This document shows, piece by piece, positions 1-10,235 of a stretch of 10,235 nucleotides of DNA (the stretch's first letter is position 1; each line of letters starts with the position of its first letter). This stretch comes from Dehalococcoidia bacterium (GTDB taxonomy: Bacteria > Chloroflexota > Dehalococcoidia > GIF9 > UBA5629), in contig JAFGLP010000110.1 of NCBI GenBank assembly GCA_016927965.1, positions 1 to 10,235 of the forward strand, written 5' to 3'. The position numbers and the translations under genes are program-made. The notes under the pieces are model-generated. The model ran no database searches and was not told the DNA's origin. It saw only the letters and a program-made list of their open reading frames with translations.

Positions 1-16
1 AGGATTGATAACGCTA

Positions 17-46
17 TATATACATATATCCTGCGCTATTTGTCAA
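17..46 (-). promoter_or_regulatory. Predicted sigma70-type promoter reading out of the left edge
   Basis: On the minus strand a perfect -35 TTGACA (46-41) is followed, 18 bases later, by TATATA (22-17) within a TA-rich stretch. It lies just past the terminal CRISPR repeat and points away from it, so it would serve a gene beyond the window. The same TTGACA/18/TATATA layout occurs upstream of the PAS/GAF gene. The TA-rich context makes a chance -10 fairly likely. Confidence 0.45.
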
Positions 47-56
47 GAGGATTATA

Positions 57-146
57 TGTTTCACCCCCACATGCGTGGGGAATACGGGCTTTCTTTGTTA
101 CTGAGGAAGGGCACGCACGGTTCACCCCCACATGCGTGGGGAATAC
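57..146 (-). CRISPR. Remnant type I-E CRISPR array: two repeats, one spacer
   Basis: Two near-identical 29-base repeats lie at 118-146 and 57-85, separated by a 32-base spacer at 86-117. Read on the minus strand the repeat starts GTATTCCCCACGCATGTGGG and contains the palindrome CCCCAC-GCAT-GTGGGG, which is typical of type I-E repeats processed by Cas6e; the 29+32 spacing also fits I-E. The two copies differ only near their minus-strand 3' end, where positions 27 and 29 change. Such degeneracy marks the leader-distal terminal repeat, so the array runs leftward and ends at 57. The orientation matches the adjoining cas3. No leader precedes the first repeat: its first base directly follows cas3 coding sequence and supplies the G of the cas3 stop codon. 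The spacer target cannot be determined from sequence alone. With no Cas6, Cascade or Cas1-Cas2 in the window, the array is probably inert unless served in trans. Confidence 0.93.
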
Positions 147-796
147 TACTTAAATAGATCCTCATTTGATGCTATCCAATCGGCCACTGTTGTTATTCCA
201 GCTAGGAAAATAAAGAAAGAGGGTAATGGGTTGCAGGCAATTGCCTCATGATCGATACTGCATAGCTTTTCCATATTTGAAAACAGGTCTTTTCGTGCTT
301 GACGCCACTTGATATCACCCTGCTGTGACCTTGCATAATCATCTGCTTCCCGTATTGATATGGACCGGGGAAAAACACCATGGTACCCGCCAACTGCGGC
401 GGCTATATTCCGGGCCTGTTCGGTTCCAATTTGATTCTTTAACAATTCACGTAAAGCAAGTGCTGTTATAACACCATGCCCGGGGTCTTTAGCCGGTCCA
501 GTAAATCCTTGCTCCTGAAGTGTTGCCCATATCTCTGCCCCTTTACTTTGAAATCCAGGTGACGCTTTTCCAATATCGTGCAGCCCGCTCCAAAATGAAA
601 TAACCCGGCGAGCTTTCTGAGGAGGAAGCCCTAAAACCTGGCAAATATAGCTTCTGGCTGCGTTTTGCAGCGTGAGATCCCATAAATTCTGCGTGACTGC
701 CGCAACATCCAGCATATGGCATAGCAGAGGATAATAAATCTCTGTATCATCTTTTTTCTTGGCCCAGAAATTTAATGGATAAGAGTACAAATTCAT
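146..796 (-). CDS. cas3: Truncated type I-E Cas3: HD nuclease domain only
   Basis: The 216-residue product matches the N-terminal HD nuclease domain of Cas3, the enzyme that degrades target DNA recruited by Cascade. Visible family features are the opening YPLNFWAKK, CHMLDVAAV with H27, the signature GLHDIGK with H73-D74, GHG with H107, GGYHG with H139, and VADWIASNEDLF with D206. All expected metal ligands are present. A full Cas3 is about 800-900 residues and continues into a superfamily 2 helicase. Here the frame stops immediately after the HD domain, at a TAG formed where cas3 meets the first CRISPR repeat. I chose the ATG at 796 because GAGG lies 8 bases upstream and the protein then begins like known Cas3; the frame is open back to 964, but those 56 residues do not look like Cas3. 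A weak promoter (TTGTAT 895-890, TACACT 872-867) may precede it. It could be a pseudogene, a Cas3''-like stand-alone nuclease, or an assembly join. Confidence 0.88.
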   Translation of the reverse strand: MNLYSYPLNFWAKKKDDTEIYYPLLCHMLDVAAVTQNLWDLTLQNAARSYICQVLGLPPQKARRVISFWSGLHDIGKASPGFQSKGAEIWATLQEQGFTGPAKDPGHGVITALALRELLKNQIGTEQARNIAAAVGGYHGVFPRSISIREADDYARSQQGDIKWRQARKDLFSNMEKLCSIDHEAIACNPLPSFFIFLAGITTVADWIASNEDLFK

Positions 797-1015
797 TTCA
801 ACGGCCTCATCTTTATACGCGGCAAAGTCGGAAGTTGTAAAGGCATGCAAAGTTACTCCAAGTACGAGTGTACTACCTATAAAAGTAAAATACAAGATGA
901 TCGCATAATTATGCTTACATGTGATTGCTGGAACATCGAAAAAAACGGAGTATACAACTTTCAACTTTCCTGATGTATAATCGAATAAATATAGGTTTGA
1001 GCTATTATAAGGTAG
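797..1015. other. Divergent intergenic region between cas3 remnant and zinc-ribbon/TPR gene
   Basis: These 219 AT-rich bases separate two divergent genes. On the minus strand the cas3 frame stays open through most of it without Cas3-like content. A weak minus-strand promoter is possible at 867-895, and AGTAC-GAGT-GTACT (861-874) is a short inverted repeat over its -10, so it could be an operator, though it is short enough to be chance. On the plus strand TATAAT at 976-981 could be the -10 for the gene at 1016, but its -35 is poor. I see no convincing further gene. Confidence 0.4.
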
Positions 1016-1900
1016 ATGCAGCAGAGTTTAGTCTGTCCGCGTTGTAACAATATTTTTTATCTGGGGCAGCGCTATTGCGGTTTCTGCAACCTGGCTTTTC
1101 TATATACCTGCCCGCAGTGCGGCGCCGAGATAGGTTCCGGTCATAACTACTGCGGTTCATGCGGGACCCAGGTGGTATGGGCGGAAAGCAGCGAAATGCA
1201 GGAGCAGCCGGCGCCGGTTGTTGCAGCGGCCCCCGCTGATGCTGCAGACCAACAACCAGTCCCTGATGCCGCCGGTTTGCCACAAATGCCCGACAGGCCG
1301 CCCGGTTCTCCCACAGGAGACCCCCCCAGGGACAGGGCAGAAGATCACCAGGAACGCAGCTTTACTCTTCTCAAGGAAGGGCACTACGGACTGGCCATCG
1401 CAGAGTTGACCAAGGCCATACAACATGATCCGGGGAAAGCCATAGTTTACCTGCTCAGGGGAGGCGCCTATTATAAGAAGGGAGACTATGACAGGGCTCT
1501 GCCTGACCTGAACAAGGCCATTGAACTTGACTCCAATATCCCCGCCGCCTTCTATAACCGCGGGAGCATTTATTATTATATGAAGCAGTTCGACAGGGCC
1601 ATTGCAGATTTCTCTCACGCCATAGCTATTGATAATAAGGACCCCGGCGCATACCATAACCGGGGATGCGCTTTTATTATGAAGGGACTGTATGAAAAGG
1701 CAGTCGATGACCTCAGCCGGGCCATTGAGCTTGATCCCAGCGACCCCCGTGTCTTTTGCAGCAGAGGAAGGGCATACGTGGGGAGCGGACAGAAAGCAAA
1801 GGCAGCCGAGGACTTCCGCAAGGCCATCAGCCTGTCTTCAGATCCCGAAGTTATTGAGAAAGTGGAAGAGGTACTGCACGAGCTGAGCGAAGAAGATTAG
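1016..1900 (+). CDS. Double zinc-ribbon and tetratricopeptide repeat protein
   Basis: The 294-residue protein starts with two zinc ribbons: CPRC (7-10) with CGFC (21-24), and CPQC (32-35) with CGSC (46-49). A linker rich in proline, alanine and acidic residues spans about 57-112. Four to five tetratricopeptide repeats follow from about 114 to 276, seen as the recurring pattern A-x-x-D-x-x-x-A-I-E-L-D-P and YxNRG (AFYNRGSIYYY, AYHNRGCAFIM, VFCSRGRAYVG). TPRs form helical scaffolds for protein binding; zinc ribbons bind metal and often protein or nucleic acid. No catalytic motif, signal peptide or membrane span is seen, so a cytoplasmic adaptor is inferred. The start is supported by the N-terminal ribbon and by AAGG at 1009-1012, only 3 bases from the ATG, which is tight. 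The gene stands alone, divergent from the cas3 remnant and convergent with rmuC. The partner and process are unknown. Confidence 0.88.
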   Translation: MQQSLVCPRCNNIFYLGQRYCGFCNLAFLYTCPQCGAEIGSGHNYCGSCGTQVVWAESSEMQEQPAPVVAAAPADAADQQPVPDAAGLPQMPDRPPGSPTGDPPRDRAEDHQERSFTLLKEGHYGLAIAELTKAIQHDPGKAIVYLLRGGAYYKKGDYDRALPDLNKAIELDSNIPAAFYNRGSIYYYMKQFDRAIADFSHAIAIDNKDPGAYHNRGCAFIMKGLYEKAVDDLSRAIELDPSDPRVFCSRGRAYVGSGQKAKAAEDFRKAISLSSDPEVIEKVEEVLHELSEED

Positions 1901-1907
1901 ATTGTAC

Positions 1908-1937
1908 CAGCACTGCCCGCCTGTCCCTGCAGTGCTG
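1908..1937. terminator. Perfect hairpin between convergent genes, possible terminator
   Basis: CAGCACTGC (1908-1916) pairs perfectly with GCAGTGCTG (1929-1937) around a 12-base loop. It lies just after the TPR gene stop and 26 bases beyond the rmuC stop. Neither flank has a clean T-tract, so it is not a canonical intrinsic terminator. It may protect 3' ends or act with Rho. Confidence 0.4.
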
Positions 1938-1963
1938 AGCAGCCTGACTAATAATATTTAAGC

Positions 1964-3166
1964 TCAAATATTTTCCGTGGTGTGTGATTCTTCTGCTTCA
2001 ATTAGCGGTACGTCGTTTTCCACCGGTTCCAGTTCCTCTATGTTGCGTTCTTTCCTGATATCGTCGATCTTCTTCAGTGGACGTTCGAGCTTGTTCCTGC
2101 GTGTGGTGATGAGATTATCGAATTCCTTCTGCGTTTCGGATATCTTCTTGCCCATCTTGTCCATACTCTCCACGTACTTTTGCCACTGGATGAGGAAGAA
2201 GCTTACCTGCTGAATGATCTCATCAATGGCCTGCTCGGTCTTGAAGTTGCGGACAGCCTGGTTGATCAGTGCCAGCACCGCGTAAAGAGTAACGGGTGAG
2301 CAAAGTACGACCTTGCTCTGCAGGGCATAATCGAGGAGCGTAGGGTCGTTTTCATTGATAAAGCGGTAAACCTGCTCGTTGGGTATCAACACCAGCACAT
2401 AGTCGACAGTGTTTTGCTCGGGATTTATATATTCCCTGGTAGTCACCTCCTTGATGCGCTGCCGGGTGTCCTTAAGAAAATCGTTCTTATAGCCGTCACG
2501 CTCAACTTCCGTATCGGCGCCGACATATTTCATATAGTTATCCAGGGGAAACTTTACGTCCATATTCAACTGTAGATTGTTGGGCATAAGGAAGGTATAG
2601 TCCGGCCTGTTGCCGGTGGTTTCGCTGACTGCCTGTTTACGGTAATTGGTGCCCTCGACGAAGCCGATGCTGCGCAGGATGTCGTCGGCCATGCGCTCTC
2701 CCCACTGCCCCCTGATTTTGCTGTTGCCCAGGGCTTGCTGGAGCTGTCCAGTGGTCTCCTGCAGCCTGGAGGCCTGCTCGGAGGCTATCTTTAATTGCTC
2801 TGAAAGCTGCCCCATTGTGCGTTCACGGTTTTTCTCCATCTCACTTACCAGGCTTTCGACGGTCTTAAGATTGTCTCGTACTTCCTTGATGGACTGGTCG
2901 ATGAGCTGTTTCTTGGTATCAAGGTTTTGCTCACCGAGCTGGGTGTGCTTGGACAGCACCTGTTCCGACATTTCCACCAGGTGTTGGACTGAGGCCTGCA
3001 TGGAGGTATCAGTGAAGGCGGCCATGTTCTTTTGTATCTCTCCTCCGATGGTCAGGATATCCTGCTTGTAATAGGGCTTATACACGCGGCTGATTATGAT
3101 AGTCGCGGTAATGCCGATAACCAGACCCCCCAGAAAAATAAGCCCATAAATCATCAGTTCATTCAT
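1964..3166 (-). CDS. rmuC: DNA recombination protein RmuC
   Basis: The 400-residue protein has the RmuC layout: an N-terminal membrane anchor (about residues 4-27), a coiled coil rich in E, Q and K (about 50-150), a PD-(D/E)xK nuclease-like core (about 150-330) and a charged C-terminal coil. Core marks are RGQWGE with E157, GNRPDYTF with D189, and MDVKFPLDNY with D203 and K205, which fit the catalytic pattern of this fold. RmuC limits inversions at short inverted repeats in E. coli and has been proposed to cut DNA structures; its biochemistry is not settled. The length is within the family range. The ATG at 3166 follows GAGGTG (3178-3173) at 6 bases and directly opens the membrane anchor. It is the last gene of an apparent three-gene minus-strand operon, 48 bases after the upstream zinc-finger membrane gene. 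Confidence 0.93.
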   Translation of the reverse strand: MNELMIYGLIFLGGLVIGITATIIISRVYKPYYKQDILTIGGEIQKNMAAFTDTSMQASVQHLVEMSEQVLSKHTQLGEQNLDTKKQLIDQSIKEVRDNLKTVESLVSEMEKNRERTMGQLSEQLKIASEQASRLQETTGQLQQALGNSKIRGQWGERMADDILRSIGFVEGTNYRKQAVSETTGNRPDYTFLMPNNLQLNMDVKFPLDNYMKYVGADTEVERDGYKNDFLKDTRQRIKEVTTREYINPEQNTVDYVLVLIPNEQVYRFINENDPTLLDYALQSKVVLCSPVTLYAVLALINQAVRNFKTEQAIDEIIQQVSFFLIQWQKYVESMDKMGKKISETQKEFDNLITTRRNKLERPLKKIDDIRKERNIEELEPVENDVPLIEAEESHTTENI

Positions 3167-3214
3167 TTAGTGCACCTCGATCAATCATTATGTTCCGGTT
3201 CTGATCCTTTTATA

Positions 3215-3790
3215 TCACTGCCAGGGGATATAGTCCTTCCAGGAATCATCGATACCAGCGGTTTGTCCTATCATGTAAAGGGATATCAGCAGTACGGTCA
3301 CGGCCGCTGCAAGTGCTATATAAGCGAGGATAAATCCAAATCCCCACCAAGCCCAGGTCCTCTGTGTCCTTTTAAAATGCTCGATGCTTTCCCATTTCTT
3401 ATTTTGCCAGGCCCATTCGTTGCCGCGGATCCCCAAGATGATCCTCATGGTCAGGCTGACTATCCAGCCGACGTATGGTATGAGGCCGAGCAGAGCGATA
3501 AGCGAGATCCATACATTATTGCCGATGCCCCAGATCCAGGTCATCAAGAAGCCGCCCCAGTTCCATCCCTTGATCTCCTCCGGAACAGGGGAATTTGACC
3601 CCATGCCCGGGGCACAGGGGACTACGATATTTGTCTGACCCGGCCAGGCGCCTGTTTTAAGCCGTACTTCCAGGCACCGATTGCAGTAAACCTGGCCACT
3701 GATATCGACTTTGCACTCCGGGCAAACATATGATCCACAACTGCAGCAAGAGCCTGCTGCTTCAAGGTCAGGGTGAACAGCGCATCTCAT
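3215..3790 (-). CDS. B-box-type zinc-finger membrane protein (paralog 1)
   Basis: The 191-residue protein has an N-terminal cysteine/histidine module resembling a B-box zinc finger, with likely ligands C3, H6, C15, C18, C23, C26, C36 and C39 (two zinc sites). A polar linker (about 42-74) leads to hydrophobic, tryptophan-rich segments at about 79-117 and 147-174 that look membrane-embedded. Between them lies a polar stretch GNEWAWQNKKWESIEHFKR (123-141), conserved in the neighbouring paralog. With no signal peptide, the zinc module probably faces the cytoplasm. An AAGG-type ribosome site sits about 8 bases before the ATG. It lies 37 bases after its paralog and 48 bases before rmuC, suggesting one transcript. 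The family is known to me only as uncharacterised zinc-finger membrane proteins; I assign no function. Protein binding at the membrane or metal sensing are guesses. Confidence 0.85.
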   Translation of the reverse strand: MRCAVHPDLEAAGSCCSCGSYVCPECKVDISGQVYCNRCLEVRLKTGAWPGQTNIVVPCAPGMGSNSPVPEEIKGWNWGGFLMTWIWGIGNNVWISLIALLGLIPYVGWIVSLTMRIILGIRGNEWAWQNKKWESIEHFKRTQRTWAWWGFGFILAYIALAAAVTVLLISLYMIGQTAGIDDSWKDYIPWQ

Positions 3791-3827
3791 ATTTTTTCAC
3801 CTTCCTTCTGCTGAATTGATAAAAGCT

Positions 3828-4364
3828 TTAATACCAGCTGGAGCCTGACTGGTCAATCCACCAGACCAGCAGGATAACGCCCCCGACCATCATTACCAGG
3901 AGGAACAAGGCCAATACTATCGATAGTGCCCAGCCCCAGACCGCCCAGGTATGCTGGACGCGCTTAAAATGCTCTACACTATCCCAATGTCTGGATTGCC
4001 ATGCCCATTCGTTGCCTTTAAATGCCAGCACCCAGGGCATTACCAGCGCTCCCAGGTACGGTACAAACACGAGAAATGACCACCATACACTGTTGCCGAT
4101 GCCCCAGATCCAGGTCAGTAGGAGGCCTCCCCAGTTAAATTCACCCAGCCCGGCTGGCACGGCAGCATCGCTTCCCATGCCGGAGGTATTCCCTGATTGA
4201 CCGGCTGCGATGGCAGATCCACCTGTTCCGTCCACTTTTTGCTGAATGCAGGAATTGCAGTAAATCCTGCCGTCAAAAACAACCTTGCACTCCGGGCACA
4301 CGGTTTTGGAGCACTCTATACACTGGCCAACGGCCTGGCGCTCGGGATGGTGATAGCAATACAT
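3828..4364 (-). CDS. B-box-type zinc-finger membrane protein (paralog 2)
   Basis: The 178-residue protein is a paralog of the gene immediately downstream. Its zinc ligands fall at identical positions (C3, H6, C15, C18, C23, C26, C36, C39), followed by a glycine/serine/alanine-rich linker (about 44-75). It shares WGG-x-L-x-TWIWGIGN (78-91), GNEWAWQ (117-123), EHFKR-x-Q-x-TWA-x-WG (131-144), and two hydrophobic regions at about 79-115 and 143-170. The main difference is a shorter first membrane region. It is the first gene of the rmuC operon and has an excellent Shine-Dalgarno sequence, AAAGGAGGT (4377-4369), 4 bases before the ATG. No signal peptide or enzyme motif is seen. Function is unknown; tandem duplication with conserved membrane and zinc parts suggests a paired or hetero-oligomeric role, which is inference. 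Confidence 0.85.
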   Translation of the reverse strand: MYCYHHPERQAVGQCIECSKTVCPECKVVFDGRIYCNSCIQQKVDGTGGSAIAAGQSGNTSGMGSDAAVPAGLGEFNWGGLLLTWIWGIGNSVWWSFLVFVPYLGALVMPWVLAFKGNEWAWQSRHWDSVEHFKRVQHTWAVWGWALSIVLALFLLVMMVGGVILLVWWIDQSGSSWY

Positions 4365-4551
4365 ACAGACCTCCTTTCAGCATAATATGCCGGCACAAGC
4401 TCCCGATAAAATCCCATATGTTAAATAAAGTATATTTCAAGTGCGCTTAACAATCTACTTTCATTTTTGGGGGAAAGCTAAACTTTTTACCCGCTTGCGG
4501 CGTTTTCCTTATTAGAAACACGCAGAAAATAAGTGATAAGGCAGTAAAAAA
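4365..4551. other. Intergenic region upstream of divergent zinc-finger operon and small ORF
   Basis: These 187 AT-rich bases must hold promoters for the minus-strand zinc-finger/rmuC operon and the plus-strand small ORF. On the minus strand, TATTAT (4387-4382) with TTTATC 17 bases upstream is possible, but it would start RNA inside the Shine-Dalgarno site; TTGAAA near 4440 is another partial -35. Neither is convincing. No RNA gene is recognised. Confidence 0.3.
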
Positions 4552-4638
4552 ATGAGCGTAAACATACAATTTGCAGCTATCTTGATCGGGTTCACCATCT
4601 TTTGCTCAATGATAGTTTTACTGGCCTGCGCGTATTAA
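4552..4638 (+). CDS. Small ORF: 28-residue single-span membrane protein (predicted)
   Basis: An ATG at 4552 opens 28 codons ending in TAA: MSVNIQFAAILIGFTIFCSM, then IVLLACAY. Residues 6-27 are nearly all hydrophobic, enough for one membrane span, with no charged residue after the start. AAGG (4538-4541) lies 10 bases upstream, and a strong intrinsic terminator begins 23 bases after the stop on the same strand. That combination of ribosome site, coherent transmembrane content and private terminator supports a real short gene. The terminator could instead end a small RNA made from this region. I recognise no known family; it does not resemble KdpF or CydX. No sharp promoter is seen: TTTACC with a TATTAG 18 bases later, near 4487-4516, is weak. 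Confidence 0.5.
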   Translation: MSVNIQFAAILIGFTIFCSMIVLLACAY

Positions 4639-4661
4639 TCTGCAGCAGCGCCACCTTTTTT

Positions 4662-4699
4662 CACCACTCCTGTTCTCCTCCAGGAGTGGTGATTTTTTT
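4662..4699 (+). terminator. Strong intrinsic terminator
   Basis: CACCACTCCTG (4662-4672) pairs perfectly with CAGGAGTGGTG (4681-4691) around an 8-base loop. After one A, seven consecutive T follow (4693-4699). Six T also precede the stem, giving no T-run for the minus strand. It therefore ends plus-strand transcription coming from the small ORF region and shields the phosphoesterase gene. Confidence 0.88.
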
Positions 4700-4727
4700 G
4701 CCCGGACAGGGGACAGCGGAATATACT
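4698..4727 (+). promoter_or_regulatory. Predicted promoter for the phosphoesterase-hydrolase operon
   Basis: TTGCCC (4698-4703), an 18-base spacer and TATACT (4722-4727) form a plausible sigma70-type promoter. Its -35 uses the end of the terminator T-tract. Transcription would start near 4734, about 30 bases before the TTG start and ahead of the Shine-Dalgarno site at 4750-4754. Confidence 0.55.
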
Positions 4728-4764
4728 AACAAAGCGGTAATTATCAGCCGGAGGCCATCAAAAT

Positions 4765-5226
4765 TTGAAGATTGGTGTTATCTCAGATACCCACGCCAGA
4801 TTTTTTTCAGAACTGCCCCGGAACCTGGTAAAAGCGCTGTCAGCGGTGGACCTGATAATCCATGCCGGCGATGTCATTTCCCTGGATGTCATCCACGGGC
4901 TGGAGACCTTGGCGCCGGTTAAGGCGGTCTGCGGGAATATGGATTATCCCGAGGTTAGGGCGGTCCTGCCGGAAAGGGAGATCTTCGAAGCCGCAGGCAG
5001 GAAAATAGGTATAACACATGGAAGGGGAAGTCCGCCTATCCTGGAAGTAAACGCACCTCGGCTTTTCAGCGGAGTCGATGTAACCATATTCGGACATACA
5101 CATATTGCATTTAACAAGGTTATCGGCGGCGTGCTACTGTTCAATCCCGGAAGCGCCCGGGATTCCTATGGCATATTAGATCTGGGGGATACTATCGAGA
5201 CAAAAATATTCAGGGGTTATTTTTAA
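4765..5226 (+). CDS. YfcE/MJ0936-family metallophosphoesterase
   Basis: The 153-residue protein is a compact calcineurin-like phosphoesterase. The two-metal site is visible in order: SDTH (D8, H10), HAGD (D36), GNMD (N58), THG (H85) and GHTH (H111, H113), followed by NPGS (127-130), a signature of the YfcE/MJ0936 group. Members hydrolyse phosphodiesters in vitro using manganese or similar ions; the natural substrate is generally unknown. The length is normal for the family and the protein should be cytoplasmic. The start is TTG at 4765: GGAGG (4750-4754) lies 10 bases upstream and the protein then begins MKIGVISDTH as expected. It is the first gene of a two-gene operon; the hydrolase ATG follows one base after its stop. 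Confidence 0.92.
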   Translation: MKIGVISDTHARFFSELPRNLVKALSAVDLIIHAGDVISLDVIHGLETLAPVKAVCGNMDYPEVRAVLPEREIFEAAGRKIGITHGRGSPPILEVNAPRLFSGVDVTIFGHTHIAFNKVIGGVLLFNPGSARDSYGILDLGDTIETKIFRGYF

Positions 5227-5227
5227 G

Positions 5228-6022
5228 ATGAAAGAGAGCTGGCAGGATTTCGAATTCCTGGATCACTCGGCGCTGGCCGGTTTCATTTTTTACCCAAGGC
5301 CGGACCAGTATATTTCACCCGACATGGACCACTCTGCATATTTTGATCTGCCGGTAGAGGAAGGGATCAGCATTTCCTGCCGGTTCTACCATGGAGATAA
5401 GACCAATCCCAATATCCTTTATTTTCATGGTAACGGCGAACTGGCCAGCGAGTATGAGGACGTGGGGGAGGTATTTAACCGGGCCGGCATCAATTTATTT
5501 GTGGCCGATTACCGCGGATACGGCAGGAGCGGTGGCGCCCCATCCATCAGCAGTATGATGAGAGACGCCCACGGGGTTCTGAAAGGCTTTAAAAGCGTAA
5601 TTGATGAGAGAGGGTTGGAAGGCAGCTGTTTCATCATGGGGCGCTCCCTGGGAAGCGCATCGGCAATTGAGCTGGCATCCAACCACCCCGGAGATTTTAA
5701 GGGGCTTATTATCGAAAGCGGTTTTTGTGATGTTAATGACCTGATGGGAAGGCTGGGGCTATCCCCGCCGAAGAGGGAATCAACAAACTCTGAAACACCC
5801 GGCTTGGACCGTGTGCGGCAGATTACCCTGCCGGCACTGGTTATTCATGGTAAATATGATTCGATTGTCCCGTCAGCCGAAGGGGAGAAAATATTTCGCA
5901 ACCTTAAATCGGCCGATAAGAAGATGGTAATGATCCCGCATGCCGACCACAATTCGATCCTTGTGGTGGGGTTGGATCTCTACATGCGTGAGCTTACCGC
6001 TTTTATCCAGCGGAATAAATGA
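5228..6022 (+). CDS. Alpha/beta hydrolase, serine hydrolase type
   Basis: The 264-residue protein is an alpha/beta-fold hydrolase resembling the BEM46/ABHD13 group. The oxyanion region is YFHGNGE (65-71), followed by DYRGYGRSGG (94-103). The nucleophile elbow is GRSLG with S140, the acid is D211 in HGKYDSIVP, and the base is most likely H241 in PHADHN. The triad appears complete. No signal peptide or membrane segment is seen, so a cytoplasmic esterase or thioesterase-like activity is inferred, with unknown substrate. The cap region between the nucleophile and acid is short. The ATG is one base past the phosphoesterase stop, with AGGGG about 12 bases upstream, so translation is probably coupled. 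Its TGA shares its last base with the A-tract of the terminator that follows. Confidence 0.92.
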   Translation: MKESWQDFEFLDHSALAGFIFYPRPDQYISPDMDHSAYFDLPVEEGISISCRFYHGDKTNPNILYFHGNGELASEYEDVGEVFNRAGINLFVADYRGYGRSGGAPSISSMMRDAHGVLKGFKSVIDERGLEGSCFIMGRSLGSASAIELASNHPGDFKGLIIESGFCDVNDLMGRLGLSPPKRESTNSETPGLDRVRQITLPALVIHGKYDSIVPSAEGEKIFRNLKSADKKMVMIPHADHNSILVVGLDLYMRELTAFIQRNK

Positions 6023-6051
6023 AAAAAGCCCCCTCCGGTCGGAGGGGGCTT
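6022..6051 (-). terminator. Intrinsic terminator for rplY, probably also used by the facing operon
   Basis: AAGCCCCCTCC (6026-6036) pairs with GGAGGGGGCTT (6041-6051) around a GGTC tetraloop. On the minus strand the stem is followed by six T (6027-6022), the classic layout for ending rplY, whose stop is 25 bases away. The plus side lacks a T-run, but the strong stem directly after the hydrolase stop may work in both directions. Confidence 0.88.
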
Positions 6052-6076
6052 GCGATGCAGGTTATTTTATTACTCT

Positions 6077-6727
6077 TTAGGCAGGAGCTTCCTCTTCTTC
6101 TTTATCCTCAGCAGGAGCTTCCGCCTCTTCGCCCACGGCCCCAGCAACAGGTTCTTCCTCAGCGGCCTTGCGCACTTCAGCGACCTTGATAATCATCTGC
6201 TCGGGATCGGTGAGAATGGTTACCTTTTCGCCTACAGCGAGATCTTTAACATGCAGAGACTGCTCGGGAAGGGCCAGGCTGGAGATGTCCACCTCGATAT
6301 TGTGAGGGAGGTCATCGGGCAGGGCCTCGATCTGCAATGAATTCATGGCATGCAGCAGGGATACGTTCTTCAGCTTGGAGGCCGGGGCATCTCCAACAAA
6401 TATCAGGGGCACCTCAGCCTTGAGTTTTTCAGTCATGGTGACCTGGTAAAAATCGATATGGATGGGTTCACCGGTCATCGGATTACGCTGCACATCGCGG
6501 ATAAGCACTTTGGCCGGGGATGTGGTATCCGCCATTTTGAGGGTGATCAGGTCGGTGCCTCCCGCTCTGGCCAGTAGATGTCCCAGCTTGCGTACATCGA
6601 CCTGTACCGGAACAGATTCAATCCCATGACCGTAGATATTGCATGGAATCAGCCCGCCCCTGCGCAGGAACCTTACTTTCTTCCCTTTAATTTCCCTTTT
6701 CGATATTTCCAGCTCAAGTTTTCTCAT
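6077..6727 (-). CDS. rplY: 50S ribosomal protein L25, CTC/TL5 type (bL25)
   Basis: The 216-residue product is the two-domain CTC form of bL25, which binds 5S rRNA on the large ribosomal subunit. The N-terminal RNA-binding domain spans about 1-93, with KGKKVRFLRRGGLIPCNIYG (14-33) and the motif IHIDFYQV (89-96). The C-terminal beta domain follows to about 185, with VPLIFVGDAP and LPHNIEVDISSL (140-151). An acidic, alanine-rich tail closes the protein (about 189-216), as in many CTC proteins. GGAG (6738-6735) sits 7 bases before the ATG. It lies 63 bases after the radical SAM gene on the same strand, with a possible promoter of its own between them and a strong terminator behind it. Confidence 0.96.
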   Translation of the reverse strand: MRKLELEISKREIKGKKVRFLRRGGLIPCNIYGHGIESVPVQVDVRKLGHLLARAGGTDLITLKMADTTSPAKVLIRDVQRNPMTGEPIHIDFYQVTMTEKLKAEVPLIFVGDAPASKLKNVSLLHAMNSLQIEALPDDLPHNIEVDISSLALPEQSLHVKDLAVGEKVTILTDPEQMIIKVAEVRKAAEEEPVAGAVGEEAEAPAEDKEEEEAPA

Positions 6728-6759
6728 CGTCTTTCTCCAGAGTTAGTAACAAAACATAA

Positions 6760-6788
6760 AGATTATCCTGTTTAAGCGCCAAAGTCAA
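6760..6788 (-). promoter_or_regulatory. Possible promoter for rplY
   Basis: On the minus strand TTGACT (6788-6783) is five of six to the -35 consensus, but the best -10 at 17 bases, TAATCT (6765-6760), is poor; GATAAT (6767-6762) fits better but at a 15-base spacing. rplY may instead be read through from the radical SAM gene. Confidence 0.3.
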
Positions 6789-6790
6789 AT

Positions 6791-8623
6791 TCACGATTTT
6801 TTATTTACCTGTTGCGCCCGGTCACGGCAGGCGGGGTAGATTCCCTGCATTCCGCAAAGGTTGCAATCATTACGGCGGCAATCTGGAGTTAAGTCCATGG
6901 AAAACATCTTTTCACGCTCTTTTTTCAGAAAGGCGCTGCTTACTCCCGAACTGATGTGCTGCCAGGGAAGCAATTCATCGGGATGGCGATCGCGGTGCGC
7001 GTATAGAGAAGGGTCTATTCCACATTCGTCGAAAGCCTGCTGCCATTTGCTGAAATCCAGAAACTCGCTCCAAGTATCAAGACGGCAGCCCTTTTTCCAG
7101 GCGGTGTAGATGACCGGGCCCAGCCGGCGGTCGCCCCGGGAGAGGACGGCCTCAAGCTTGCTTGTCCTGGGATCATGCCAGGATAACTGCACGCTGCCGC
7201 GTTTCATGCGGTCCTGTAATAGATTATGCTTCTGATTGAGAGTTTCTGTACTGTCCTGGGCTGACCACTGGCAGGGTGTGTGGGGCTTGGGAACAAAGGA
7301 TGAAACGGAAACCCTCACCCTGGGGGGCCGGCCCCGGATGCCCTTTCCCAACCTGCAGATCGTGTCGACCAGGCTTGCAATAGATGCGACATCATCCAGT
7401 GTTTCCCCGGGAAGGCCTATCATGAAGTAAAGCTTGAGGTTCATCCAGTCTTTTTGAAAGGCTGCAGAAAAGGCTTCCATCATGGCTTCCTGAGGTATCC
7501 ACTTATTAATGACCTTCCTCATGCGTTCATTCCCGGCCTCGGGGGCAAAGGTCAGGGTCGTCTTGCGGCCAGAGGGAAGGGAGTCGATCAGGTCTATGGA
7601 AGACTTATCCAATCTGAGGCTGGGTAATGAAAGCGTAATACCATCATCCTTATACCTTTCTATAATGCTTGCGACCAGATGGTTTATCCCGCTGTAATCT
7701 CCGGAACTGAGAGAAACGAGAGAGAGCGTGTTATAGCCGCTATTTTTCAGCAGGCAGTCCGCTGCTTCGAGCACCCTGTCTTCGGACATTTCACGCACGG
7801 GACGGTAAAGTACGCCGGCCTGGCAAAAGCGGCAACCCCGGCTGCAGCCGCGCTGTATTTCCACCGCCGCCCTGTCATGGACCACTTCAAGATAGGGCAC
7901 CACGGGCCGTATTACGGGTTTAAGTTCACTGGCAATAACACGTTGAATACTGCCGGGCGCACATGGTTGTGATGGGCTAATCGAAGTAAAAGCGCCATCC
8001 CGGCTATATGTAGCTGAATAAAATTGAGGCACGTAAATGCCGGGCAGGCGGCAAAGCTGCCGCAGCAATTCCTGCTTATCCTGTTTATATTTAACGTACG
8101 TGTTAATAATGCCAGGCAGGGCTTCCTCGGCTTCGCCTATGAAAAAGGCATCGATGAAGTCGGACATCGGTTCAGGGTTCATGGCGCAGCTGCCTCCGGC
8201 TATTATCAGGGGGCCCCCTTCATTTCGGTCCCGGCCGAATACGGGAAGACCGGCCAGGTCCAGCATATTCAACACGGTGGTGTAGCTTAACTCGTATCCC
8301 AGTGAAAATCCTATGATATCGAATTGGTGCAGAGGATGATGGGACTCGAGACTATACAACGGGAGGTTATGCTGCCTGAGCTGGTCTTCCATATCGGGCC
8401 ATGGAGCATATACCCTTTCGGCAAGTACTCCGGGTATTGCATTGAGCAGTTGGTACAGTATGGGGATTGCCATATTTGACATCCCCACCTCATAGATATC
8501 AGGGAAAGCCAGCGCTACCCTGACATTAATAGAGTCCCAGTCTTTGGATATGCAGTTCCATTCCCCGCCGGTATACCTGCCGGGCTTGGCGACTTTGTGA
8601 AAAACATTATCAGGAATATACAT
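6791..8623 (-). CDS. B12-binding-type radical SAM protein (TIGR03960-like)
   Basis: The 610-residue protein has an N-terminal cobalamin-binding-like Rossmann region (about 30-175, with AFPDIYEVGMSN at 39-50 and GGSCAMNPEP at 143-152) and a radical SAM barrel. IQRGCSRGCRFCQAGVLYRP carries the CxxxCxxC iron-sulfur motif at C260, C264 and C267. FMIGLPGE marks a conserved radical SAM strand. The C terminus holds more cysteines (C582, C587, C590, C599), a possible second cluster or zinc site. The closest family I recognise is TIGR03960, often fused or adjacent to a DUF2344/TIGR03936 partner; none is seen here. The reaction is not established. The canonical DxHxxG cobalamin motif is not evident, so B12 binding is uncertain. 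AAAGG (8637-8633) lies 9 bases before the ATG. It is upstream of rplY and divergent from the PAS/GAF gene. Confidence 0.88.
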   Translation of the reverse strand: MYIPDNVFHKVAKPGRYTGGEWNCISKDWDSINVRVALAFPDIYEVGMSNMAIPILYQLLNAIPGVLAERVYAPWPDMEDQLRQHNLPLYSLESHHPLHQFDIIGFSLGYELSYTTVLNMLDLAGLPVFGRDRNEGGPLIIAGGSCAMNPEPMSDFIDAFFIGEAEEALPGIINTYVKYKQDKQELLRQLCRLPGIYVPQFYSATYSRDGAFTSISPSQPCAPGSIQRVIASELKPVIRPVVPYLEVVHDRAAVEIQRGCSRGCRFCQAGVLYRPVREMSEDRVLEAADCLLKNSGYNTLSLVSLSSGDYSGINHLVASIIERYKDDGITLSLPSLRLDKSSIDLIDSLPSGRKTTLTFAPEAGNERMRKVINKWIPQEAMMEAFSAAFQKDWMNLKLYFMIGLPGETLDDVASIASLVDTICRLGKGIRGRPPRVRVSVSSFVPKPHTPCQWSAQDSTETLNQKHNLLQDRMKRGSVQLSWHDPRTSKLEAVLSRGDRRLGPVIYTAWKKGCRLDTWSEFLDFSKWQQAFDECGIDPSLYAHRDRHPDELLPWQHISSGVSSAFLKKEREKMFSMDLTPDCRRNDCNLCGMQGIYPACRDRAQQVNKKS

Positions 8624-8801
8624 CTTGGCGAACCTTTCAATTATAGCGGGCTATGACCACACCGACAATAACGTTTATGAAACTCCTGCCGCAACAATAA
8701 CTATTTGCCAGGATTAATTGACACCTGATGAAATTAAAGGGTATATAATATCCTAAATACTATTTCCCTGCTCCTAAGGGGTTGTACGGGGGGACTGTTA
8801 T
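8624..8801. other. Divergent promoter region between radical SAM and PAS/GAF genes
   Basis: These 178 bases separate two divergent genes and contain the strong plus-strand promoter described separately. A minus-strand candidate, TTGTCG (8668-8663) with TATAAT (8645-8640) at 17 bases, matches consensus well, but its start site would fall at about 8633, on the radical SAM Shine-Dalgarno sequence, giving an almost leaderless message. No RNA gene is seen. Confidence 0.4.
8718..8749 (+). promoter_or_regulatory. Predicted sigma70-type promoter for the PAS/GAF gene
   Basis: A perfect TTGACA (8718-8723) is followed by TATATAAT (8742-8749), giving TATATA at an 18-base spacer or TATAAT at 20. RNA would begin near 8756, leaving a leader of about 45 bases with a G-rich ribosome site (8788-8794). 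Confidence 0.65.
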
Positions 8802-10235
8802 ATGGCGAGGAAAGAGCAAAATAAAGACCAGAAAAAAGTCAGTTCGAAAGCCGAAAAGCAGCCTGCTCCAGCAAAGAAAAGGGGGCCTGCTAAAGCGGTA
8901 AAGGCTGCGAAAGCCAAATCTACCCCGGTCGAAATCACGGCTTCCATGCAGCATGCAATGGAAACGCTTTCAGACATGCAGTTGGGTGGCTGTATTTTTG
9001 ATAAAGAAGACAGGATCATCTCTCTTAACCGGCGTTTTTCCGAGGTGACGGGCCTGCAGCCTGAAAAGATAATAGGAAAAAAGCTGGCAAAAAACGCTCT
9101 GTGGGGGACCGGAGAAGAGCAGAAACAGTTTGCGGAGCTTTTTGCAGAAGCCAGGAATTCAGGCAAAACAATCGCTGGTGAGCGCTGGCCAGCAGGCACA
9201 GGGGAAGAAGGTAACAGGTACTGGAATATTACCCTGCTGCCACAGCAGGAAGATAGTAAAGAATATAGCGGCATGTACCTGACGATAGAGGAAACCTGCG
9301 ATAGCGTGCCGGAGACCGGCATGGCGGAGTTGATAGGCGGCATTCTGAAGGAGGGAGTGCAGCATAATGAACCGCAGAGCCTGCTGGACAGCTTGGTTGG
9401 AATTTTGCGGGATTTCTGCCGCTGCTCACATGTAAAAATAGCACTGGCGGATAAATCCGAAGAGCACTTGATTAAGGCGGAGACGGGGCAGGAGTTGGGC
9501 CTGTGGGATGCTGGAGAGACGTTGGCTGCCGATGTTATTAACAGGCTGTTTGAGTGGAGTGGGGAGGAACCGCCGCCATATCAGAACAGCCGGAGAACGA
9601 TCTATCTGGCGAACATAAACCTTATTGAAGATAGCCTCGAAGGTTCATTGAAAGATCTGGTGGTGAATCTGCGCAATTCATACGGTTTCCGCTCTATTGC
9701 CTTTATCCCGGTCAAGGATGGTAGCCGGATCAAGGGTTTCATCCAGCTGGCCAATACGAAAGCGGGAGGCATACCGGCAGCGATACTGCAGGCGGTGGAA
9801 ATTGCTGCGGACCAGCTCCACGTGATGCTGGAGAGAATAGAGTTAAAGGAAGATTTACGCAGGCAGCGGGAAAGCCTCCTGCGGCAAATGCATGAACGCA
9901 GCGCCCACCTGGAGGCCATGAGCGGCAGGCTAAAACAGGAGGTCTTTGAACGCAAGAAGAGTCAGGATGAAATGCGCGAGCAAAGGGATCTCGCTGTAAC
10001 GCTTAACGGTATTGTCAATTTGGATGAAGCCCTACAGCTTTGCCTTGAAACTGCCATACGTGTTGCAGACGCAGATTCCGGCGGTATTTATCTTGTCGAC
10101 CGTCAGATGGGTGGGCTGGTACTGTCATGCAGCAAAGGCCTGTCGGATGAATTTATCGCCACCGTAAGCCAGTACGAGCAGTCCTCACCCAATTATGAGC
10201 TGGTGATGAAGATGAATCCGGTGTACGCCACTATG
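8802..10235 (+). CDS. PAS/GAF-domain sensor protein, 3' end outside window
   Basis: The frame is open from ATG 8802 to the window edge: 478 codons, no stop. Residues 1-45 are basic and lysine/alanine/proline rich (KKRGPAKAVKAAKAKS at 25-40). A PAS domain follows (about 50-165, GGCIFDKEDRIISLNRRFSE at 62-81). A GAF-like domain covers about 190-345, with FRSIAFIPV and GFIQLAN as typical strands. A coiled coil (about 345-395) leads into a second GAF (from about 400, with ADADSGGIYLVDRQ). PAS and GAF domains sense ligands, redox state or light and pass the signal to an output domain, which lies beyond the window; a histidine kinase is most likely, with GGDEF or a phosphatase as alternatives. No membrane span is seen, so sensing is probably cytoplasmic. 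A GGGGGGA ribosome site ends 7 bases before the ATG. Codon use resembles the neighbours. Antisense open frames inside it are shadows. Confidence 0.87.
   Translation, partial: MARKEQNKDQKKVSSKAEKQPAPAKKRGPAKAVKAAKAKSTPVEITASMQHAMETLSDMQLGGCIFDKEDRIISLNRRFSEVTGLQPEKIIGKKLAKNALWGTGEEQKQFAELFAEARNSGKTIAGERWPAGTGEEGNRYWNITLLPQQEDSKEYSGMYLTIEETCDSVPETGMAELIGGILKEGVQHNEPQSLLDSLVGILRDFCRCSHVKIALADKSEEHLIKAETGQELGLWDAGETLAADVINRLFEWSGEEPPPYQNSRRTIYLANINLIEDSLEGSLKDLVVNLRNSYGFRSIAFIPVKDGSRIKGFIQLANTKAGGIPAAILQAVEIAADQLHVMLERIELKEDLRRQRESLLRQMHERSAHLEAMSGRLKQEVFERKKSQDEMREQRDLAVTLNGIVNLDEALQLCLETAIRVADADSGGIYLVDRQMGGLVLSCSKGLSDEFIATVSQYEQSSPNYELVMKMNPVYATM

Follow-up and report, generated by a model that had tools for sequence, protein, structure and literature searches.

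The gain and loss of CRISPR-Cas loci are mostly inferred from presence and absence. For Cas1-Cas2, the available text of PMC10011333 describes both the half-site reaction, which takes place where leader and repeat meet, and integration in vitro, which occurs at all repeats; that of PMC11788318 cites non-canonical integration outside arrays. End joining is known for CRISPR self-damage, and self-targeting goes together with cas gene loss, according to the available text of PMC6990116. In contrast to inference from presence and absence, both edges of an inserted island and one internal breakpoint are here legible to the single base through comparison with an empty site. The island lies in a stretch of 10,235 nt that appears to be a complete contig and is referred to as the window.

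Intact type I-E loci give the measure of what is missing. Fifteen loci were fetched, of which 12 show both cas3 and an array; L076, L078 and L084 showed no array. The distance from the HD start to the array is 8,335–9,110 nt (8.3–9.1 kb) in all 12, and a loss of about 8 kb in the window follows from this spacing. The loci L071, L072 and L074 (genomes G098, G240 and G182, respectively) resemble the window in an identical 26-nt repeat core, in spacers mostly 33 nt long, in the placement of cas3 upstream of the array and in a homologous Cas3 HD domain (43–44% identity). They have a full-length cas3 and 8.3–8.7 kb up to the array, whereas the window is without everything between the HD domain and the repeat. 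Complete arrays hold 17 (L072), 22 (L074) and 11 (L080) repeats, as against one or two in each of the three scars, that is, cas3 fragments ending at a repeat, described below.

The cas3 fragment and its mini-array

The window is composed of the following features.

1..57, no strand: chromosomal flank on the array side, an ungapped 57-base local alignment to L001, ahead of a universal stress protein gene
58..85, minus: terminal I-E repeat GTATTCCCCACGCATGTGGGGGTGAAAC, last bases GAAAC, not GAACC
86..118, minus: 33-nt spacer GTGCGTGCCCTTCCTCAGTAACAAAGAAAGCCC between the two repeats
119..146, minus: I-E repeat GTATTCCCCACGCATGTGGGGGTGAACC, 28 nt, adjoining the cas3 fragment
147..151, minus: AAGTA, ambiguous breakpoint bases, either cas3 (K and the TA of Y) or a leader or spacer remnant
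146..796, minus: 5' fragment of a type I-E cas3, 216 codons, with a complete HD domain, without helicase, TAG stop at 148–146
797..950, minus: 154 nt ahead of cas3, forming the upstream end of the insert
951..953, no strand: ATA, equal to 55–57, a possible 3-bp target duplication or chance
954..10235, no strand: conserved Dehalococcoidia chromosome, by alignment to L001 and L034

The cas3 frame starts with an ATG at 796 and ends at 146 on the minus strand. Pfam Cas3_HD matches it over the full model (1–207 of 207, E 9.1e-50), NCBIfam cas3_HD matches it as well, and the best PADLOC match is Cas3e (2e-35). The closest full-length Cas3 relative is 56% identical. The final codons read ...VADWIASNEDLFK-TAG, and G146 is both the third base of the stop codon and the first base of the repeat GTATTCCCCACGCATGTGGGGGTGAACC (146–119). 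A sequence-only reading of this DNA had described exactly this, a minus-strand cas3 running into a full I-E repeat with TA and the first G of the repeat as its stop, and its coordinates are right, the stop being T148, A147 and G146. It was also correct in placing no leader or cas operon between gene and repeat, since at most 5 nt separate the cas3 coding sequence from the repeat and no Cas genes adjoin, and in expecting several kilobases there in an intact locus, as the 12 relatives have. The deletion from cas3 to array that it proposed agrees with those distances, with the island edges seen against the empty site and with two other genomes in which a cas3 fragment ends at a repeat.

A functional type I-E locus has a Cas3 with HD and helicase domains; the window Cas3, of 216 aa, has the HD domain alone. 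Cascade genes, cas1 and cas2 do not adjoin the window array, as the cas3 fragment abuts the repeat and 58–950 is flanked by chromosome on both sides; four other large ORFs of the window were scanned and none is Cas, and the remaining ORFs were judged by eye. No leader stands upstream of the first repeat. With no helicase, no Cascade, no leader and one spacer, the remnant should be dead.

The array shows the type I-E combination of repeat and 32–33 nt spacer. The 26-base core of its repeat is identical in full I-E loci of G098, G182 and G240, which are other Dehalococcoidia, and a chance match can therefore be set aside. With at most one mismatch, the core occurs in 9/393 genomes of the class, and in viral contigs it was not found. 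For the spacer, no exact match was found in viral contigs, and phage records had no match either up to an E of 1; a search of the compared loci that allowed up to 7 mismatches recovered only the spacer itself. The terminal repeat of the L080 array (13336–13363, plus strand) and that of the window (58–85, minus) have the same GTGAAAC for GTGAACC, followed by AT. Lone I-E repeats were seen in three Dehalococcoidia genomes, at L117 1515–1542 (minus), L119 972–999 (plus) and L174 2886–2913 (minus); two are perfect and one has one mismatch in 28 bases, and no array or recognised cas gene adjoins them. The L119 repeat enters an open frame that has an N-terminally truncated look and no Pfam match.

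The island and its empty site

The conserved chromosome at 954–10235 carries a zinc-ribbon/TPR gene, RmuC, a phosphoesterase, a hydrolase, L25, a radical SAM gene and a PAS/GAF protein (TPR, RmuC, radical SAM and PAS/GAF by Pfam; phosphoesterase, hydrolase and L25 named by eye). Its nucleotide identity is 82% to L001 over window positions 951–10107 and 73% to L034 over 951–10153, and the closest match to the radical SAM protein among Dehalococcoidia MAGs is 88% identical. The alignments end at 951 in L001 and L034 and at 950 in L002. Window 1–57 and 951 onward abut at one point in L001, which is an empty site because its alignment stops at 951 and window 1–57 matches its next bases. Compared with this site, 58–950 is an insert of 893 bp. 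In L001 a TPR gene borders the site on one side and a universal stress protein gene on the other (Usp ORF, PF00582, E 1.1e-28), and in L002 and L022 the two window flanks are likewise near each other. A -35-like TTGACA at 46–41 (minus strand), promoter-like for the stress gene, is intact beside the last repeat.

Three bases, ATA, are common to both flank alignments to L001, and the joined-flank score peaks with those three counted once. By the criteria for a transposon insertion, the possible ATA duplication is short at 3 bp, and the sole long ORF in 58–950 is cas3. It is a matter of observation where the island begins and ends, that a relative has the site empty, that cas3 is truncated and that it is joined directly to the repeat in the contig. 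Cas3_HD was found in none of the 13 genomes behind 14 syntenic loci and in none of 30 genomes of the family (partly the same as the 13), as against 24/393 genomes in the whole class, and for this reason the island looks gained in the lineage of the window.

Breakpoints at or near the repeat edge in three genomes

How exactly cas3 meets the repeat depends on the five bases AAGTA. Homology to cas3 is clear through the F codon. The motif was found in 116/120 full-length proteins, 113 of which were scored; the residue after F is P in 95/113 and K in 1/113, and the following residue is Y in 62/113. Because relatives mostly have P then Y, and K in one, these bases may belong to cas3, or as many as 5 nt of them to leader or spacer, and since the closest full-length relative is 56% identical and the L080 leader ends TTTTAAG beside its repeat, up to five bases may be leader. 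The exact cas3-repeat edge in the window is accordingly unproven and fixed only to within 5 nt.

Two further genomes, G079 and G016, hold the only mid-contig 3'-truncated cas3 fragments in the genomes scanned, the latter on contig C3, and both fragments end at the 5' edge of a repeat. The three fragments measure 648 nt (window), 423 nt (G079) and 380 nt (G016). Other short cas3 frames that were inspected run off contig ends (G153, G519, G525 and G843), have frame disruptions (G679 and G698) or have an internal deletion (G735).

The fragment in G079 (L115), of 423 nt or 141 codons, ends at the repeat, and 39/121 relatives align to within one residue of its end. P0065, the closest among six relatives with tails printed, matches 22/23 of the last residues (...DMAQSVG against ...DMAQSIG) and then continues FAIGGHHG. 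Because the 141 codons align to the last codon with close relatives, no more than about 1 nt lies between cas3 and the repeat; the codon that follows in the native gene (F) starts unlike the repeat, and the repeat does not continue cas3. This placement derives from protein relatives and not from the DNA alignment to G240 (81% in the matched stretch), which stops 15 nt before the repeat, with 8/15 bases alike beyond. A block at about L115 5368–5452, lying 54–138 nt before the G079 junction, agrees with the G240 cas3 at 81/85 nt, compared with 299/423 ungapped over the whole fragment, and looks like a recombined tract. A common trailer of the G079 and G240 arrays was considered and rejected, the alignment being no better than shuffles. 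G079 also has a hicB gene (Pfam HicB) between two I-E repeats (L115 4259–5314), and a stretch related to this region (73% over 117 nt) is found in G060 (L116 105–255), upstream of a small array where no cas gene was noticed.

In G016 (L121), the 380-nt fragment ends at the repeat and is followed by an ABC gene without its start. To within one residue of the translated end, 88/121 relatives align, at a modest 44–50% identity in the six rows shown. Contig C33 of the same genome holds the rest of a cas3, starting about 14 residues past the fragment, and contig C31 a cas1/cas2-like coding sequence (by eye), then repeat-spacer-repeat. The ABC gene was rejected as a natural right flank, because its counterpart in G077, a relative, comes after a gene that by eye is permease-like; the right junction of G016 is thus rearranged and is unused as evidence. 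It may involve similarity of the last 7 bases of the repeat to the ABC start. G077 also has a lone cas6e gene (L178 3363–4184, plus strand; Pfam PF08798, PADLOC Cas6e), with no I-E repeat found in the 6 kb read, and the gene before it shows 72% identity to the gene ahead of the cas3 fragment in G016, which was named acetyltransferase-like by eye. The cas6e gene would be another decayed I-E locus beside the same acetyltransferase-like gene.

All three cas3 breakpoints fall in the first quarter of the gene, a post-hoc pattern in three cases. A mobile module made of cas3 fragment and repeat was rejected, as the three fragments differ in length and setting. The chance of a random break within a 61-bp array unit hitting the tolerances in the window and G079 is about (6/61) × (2/61), near 0.003 by a post-hoc estimate. 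The sequence-only reading had taken the 5' boundary of the repeat as exact; the positions of stop and repeat stand, and exactness in the window is unproven, since AAGTA may be leader or spacer. Its idea that the repeat edge fixed one end of the deletion has good support in G079, at about 1 nt, and in the window is supported only to within 5 nt. The comparison with full I-E relatives that it proposed yielded the loss of about 8 kb and left the origin of AAGTA ambiguous among the 113 scored proteins. Microhomology, one of its suggested causes, is not visible on the cas3 side in G079.

Similar scars were sought elsewhere. In E. coli, no cas3 5' end joined to the iap side was found: 5,371 genomes have a match, and coverage of the probe is 55% at the best place and nowhere reaches 80%. 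The probe covers K-12-like cas3 only; other alleles, remnants of very small size and pieces separated by more than about 1.15 kb would escape it. Of 345 genomes in the phylum of G757, a Geotalea genome, 30 have an HD match, and no such scar was present among these. Titles and abstracts in the literature yielded no recognised cas3-repeat junction scar, which is no claim of absence from print.

Origins of the join and comparison with known systems

We consider it likely that the window holds the relic of a horizontally acquired type I-E locus that lost about 8 kb in one internal deletion. The locus would have been acquired into the intergenic region between the TPR gene and the universal stress protein gene. 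One internal deletion, which we infer to have taken place in the cell and as a single event, would then have removed the rest of cas3, the Cascade genes, cas1, cas2, the leader and probably most of the array, and a broken or resected cas3 end would probably have been joined to the 5' side of an array repeat. Several points count against this account: one or two repeats are left per scar, though joining at the first repeat should spare the whole array; the edge in the window is fixed only to within 5 nt; the three assemblies are by our judgement metagenome-derived; and the searches in E. coli and in the phylum of G757 yielded no such scar.

The main rival, which we regard as unlikely, is an artefact of mixed-strain assembly: strains with, without or with a partly deleted island coexist, and the assembler joined a cas3 end to a piece flanking a repeat. 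All three scar cases were judged to be metagenome-derived assemblies. After the last repeat the contig continues for 57 nt only and stops where a strain with the empty site would presumably branch, and the scar was not seen in E. coli. G016 is split in a manner that fits such an artefact: the other part of its split cas3 and the start of an array are found on different short contigs, so that its assembly still includes island DNA. However, a graph join needs bases common across 146/147 and none is seen there, three separate assemblies with the same unusual join would need a common cause, and both flanks of the window belong to one empty site.

It is very improbable that the array once held a spacer copied from cas3 and that a switch from the gene into this spacer, by recombination or in the assembler, placed the junction at the spacer 3' end. 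Such a switch would yield exact repeat-edge junctions without special enzymes and is in keeping with the joint occurrence of self-targeting and cas gene loss in the available text of PMC6990116. Spacers of six related arrays have G as their first base in 58/61 cases and are 33 nt long in 49/61, but in none of the three scars is there a G at 32, 33 or 34 nt upstream of the junction; the window has G only at 35 nt, a length found once in 61 spacers. In addition, the 23 bases before the G016 junction are single copy in the genome, within cas3 (at most 2 mismatches), and the explanation is disfavoured on these two grounds. It is equally improbable that the gene is no truncation but a natural, stand-alone Cas3'' of HD type beside a small array of its own. 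The ORF is intact, encodes the complete HD domain by itself and ends at the HD boundary, but the full-length relatives are fused HD-helicase proteins whose open frames span about 900 aa (20 other HD-only proteins were matched as sequences without genomic context), Cas3e far outscores the HD-only model in PADLOC, and fragment length is not conserved because the G079 and G016 fragments stop inside the HD domain (1–115 and 1–113 of 207).

If the join arose by internal deletion of an acquired locus, two routes come into question. Ordinary illegitimate end joining, which needs no special step, is the more probable. Joining by Cas1-Cas2, with half-site attachment of a long chromosomal 3' end to the 5' edge of a repeat, is a possible though less probable route; Cas1-Cas2 is known as the enzyme that works at this edge. 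Its geometry would agree with the junctions, which lie within 5 nt of the repeat 5' edge in the window and at about 1 nt in G079; a whole array downstream, which this reaction would leave, is not found, though later contraction is possible. The Cas1-Cas2-like cutting named in the sequence-only reading is possible, but the tiny remaining arrays do not fit its simplest form, and the repeat-edge pattern is not proof of an integrase route. We know of no demonstration that Cas1-Cas2 joins a chromosomal end so that the operon is deleted. A broader proposition, that CRISPR-Cas loci delete themselves when Cas1-Cas2 takes a chromosomal 3' end in cas3 as prespacer, joins it to the repeat 5' edge and removes the operon, leaving a signature scar of which three cases would be seen here, we hold to be doubtful. 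The interpretation offered by the sequence-only reading is in sum partly supported, in its deletion and not in any fixed cause of the repeat-edge join. If upheld in long reads, repeat-edge scars would be a testable signature of a specific route of CRISPR loss; if they are assembly joins, they warn against a literal reading of CRISPR remnants in short-read data.

Among described systems, Cas1-Cas2 half-site integration, as presented in the available text of PMC10011333, would join a 3' end to the 5' edge of a repeat, in keeping with the geometry of the scars; it differs in that it is described with protospacers and in that the whole array should remain. The loss of cas genes after self-targeting resembles the window in the deletion of cas genes and proceeds, according to the available text of PMC6990116, by microhomology end joining, by IS or homologous recombination or by recombination between repeats. 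Compared with the cases in that text, the scars have one break at the repeat edge (G079) or within 5 nt of it (window), and no self-targeting spacer is known for them. Orphan mini-arrays and solo repeats are similar in having one or two repeats without adaptation or interference genes, as in L116, L117, L119, L174 and L179, where no cas gene was noticed nearby. The window array differs from these in retaining an attached cas3 5' fragment, which marks it as the remnant of its own locus. The window contains a real-looking relic of an acquired type I-E locus; it is of an ordinary kind, but its breakpoint can be read unusually well and two other genomes hold companions to it.
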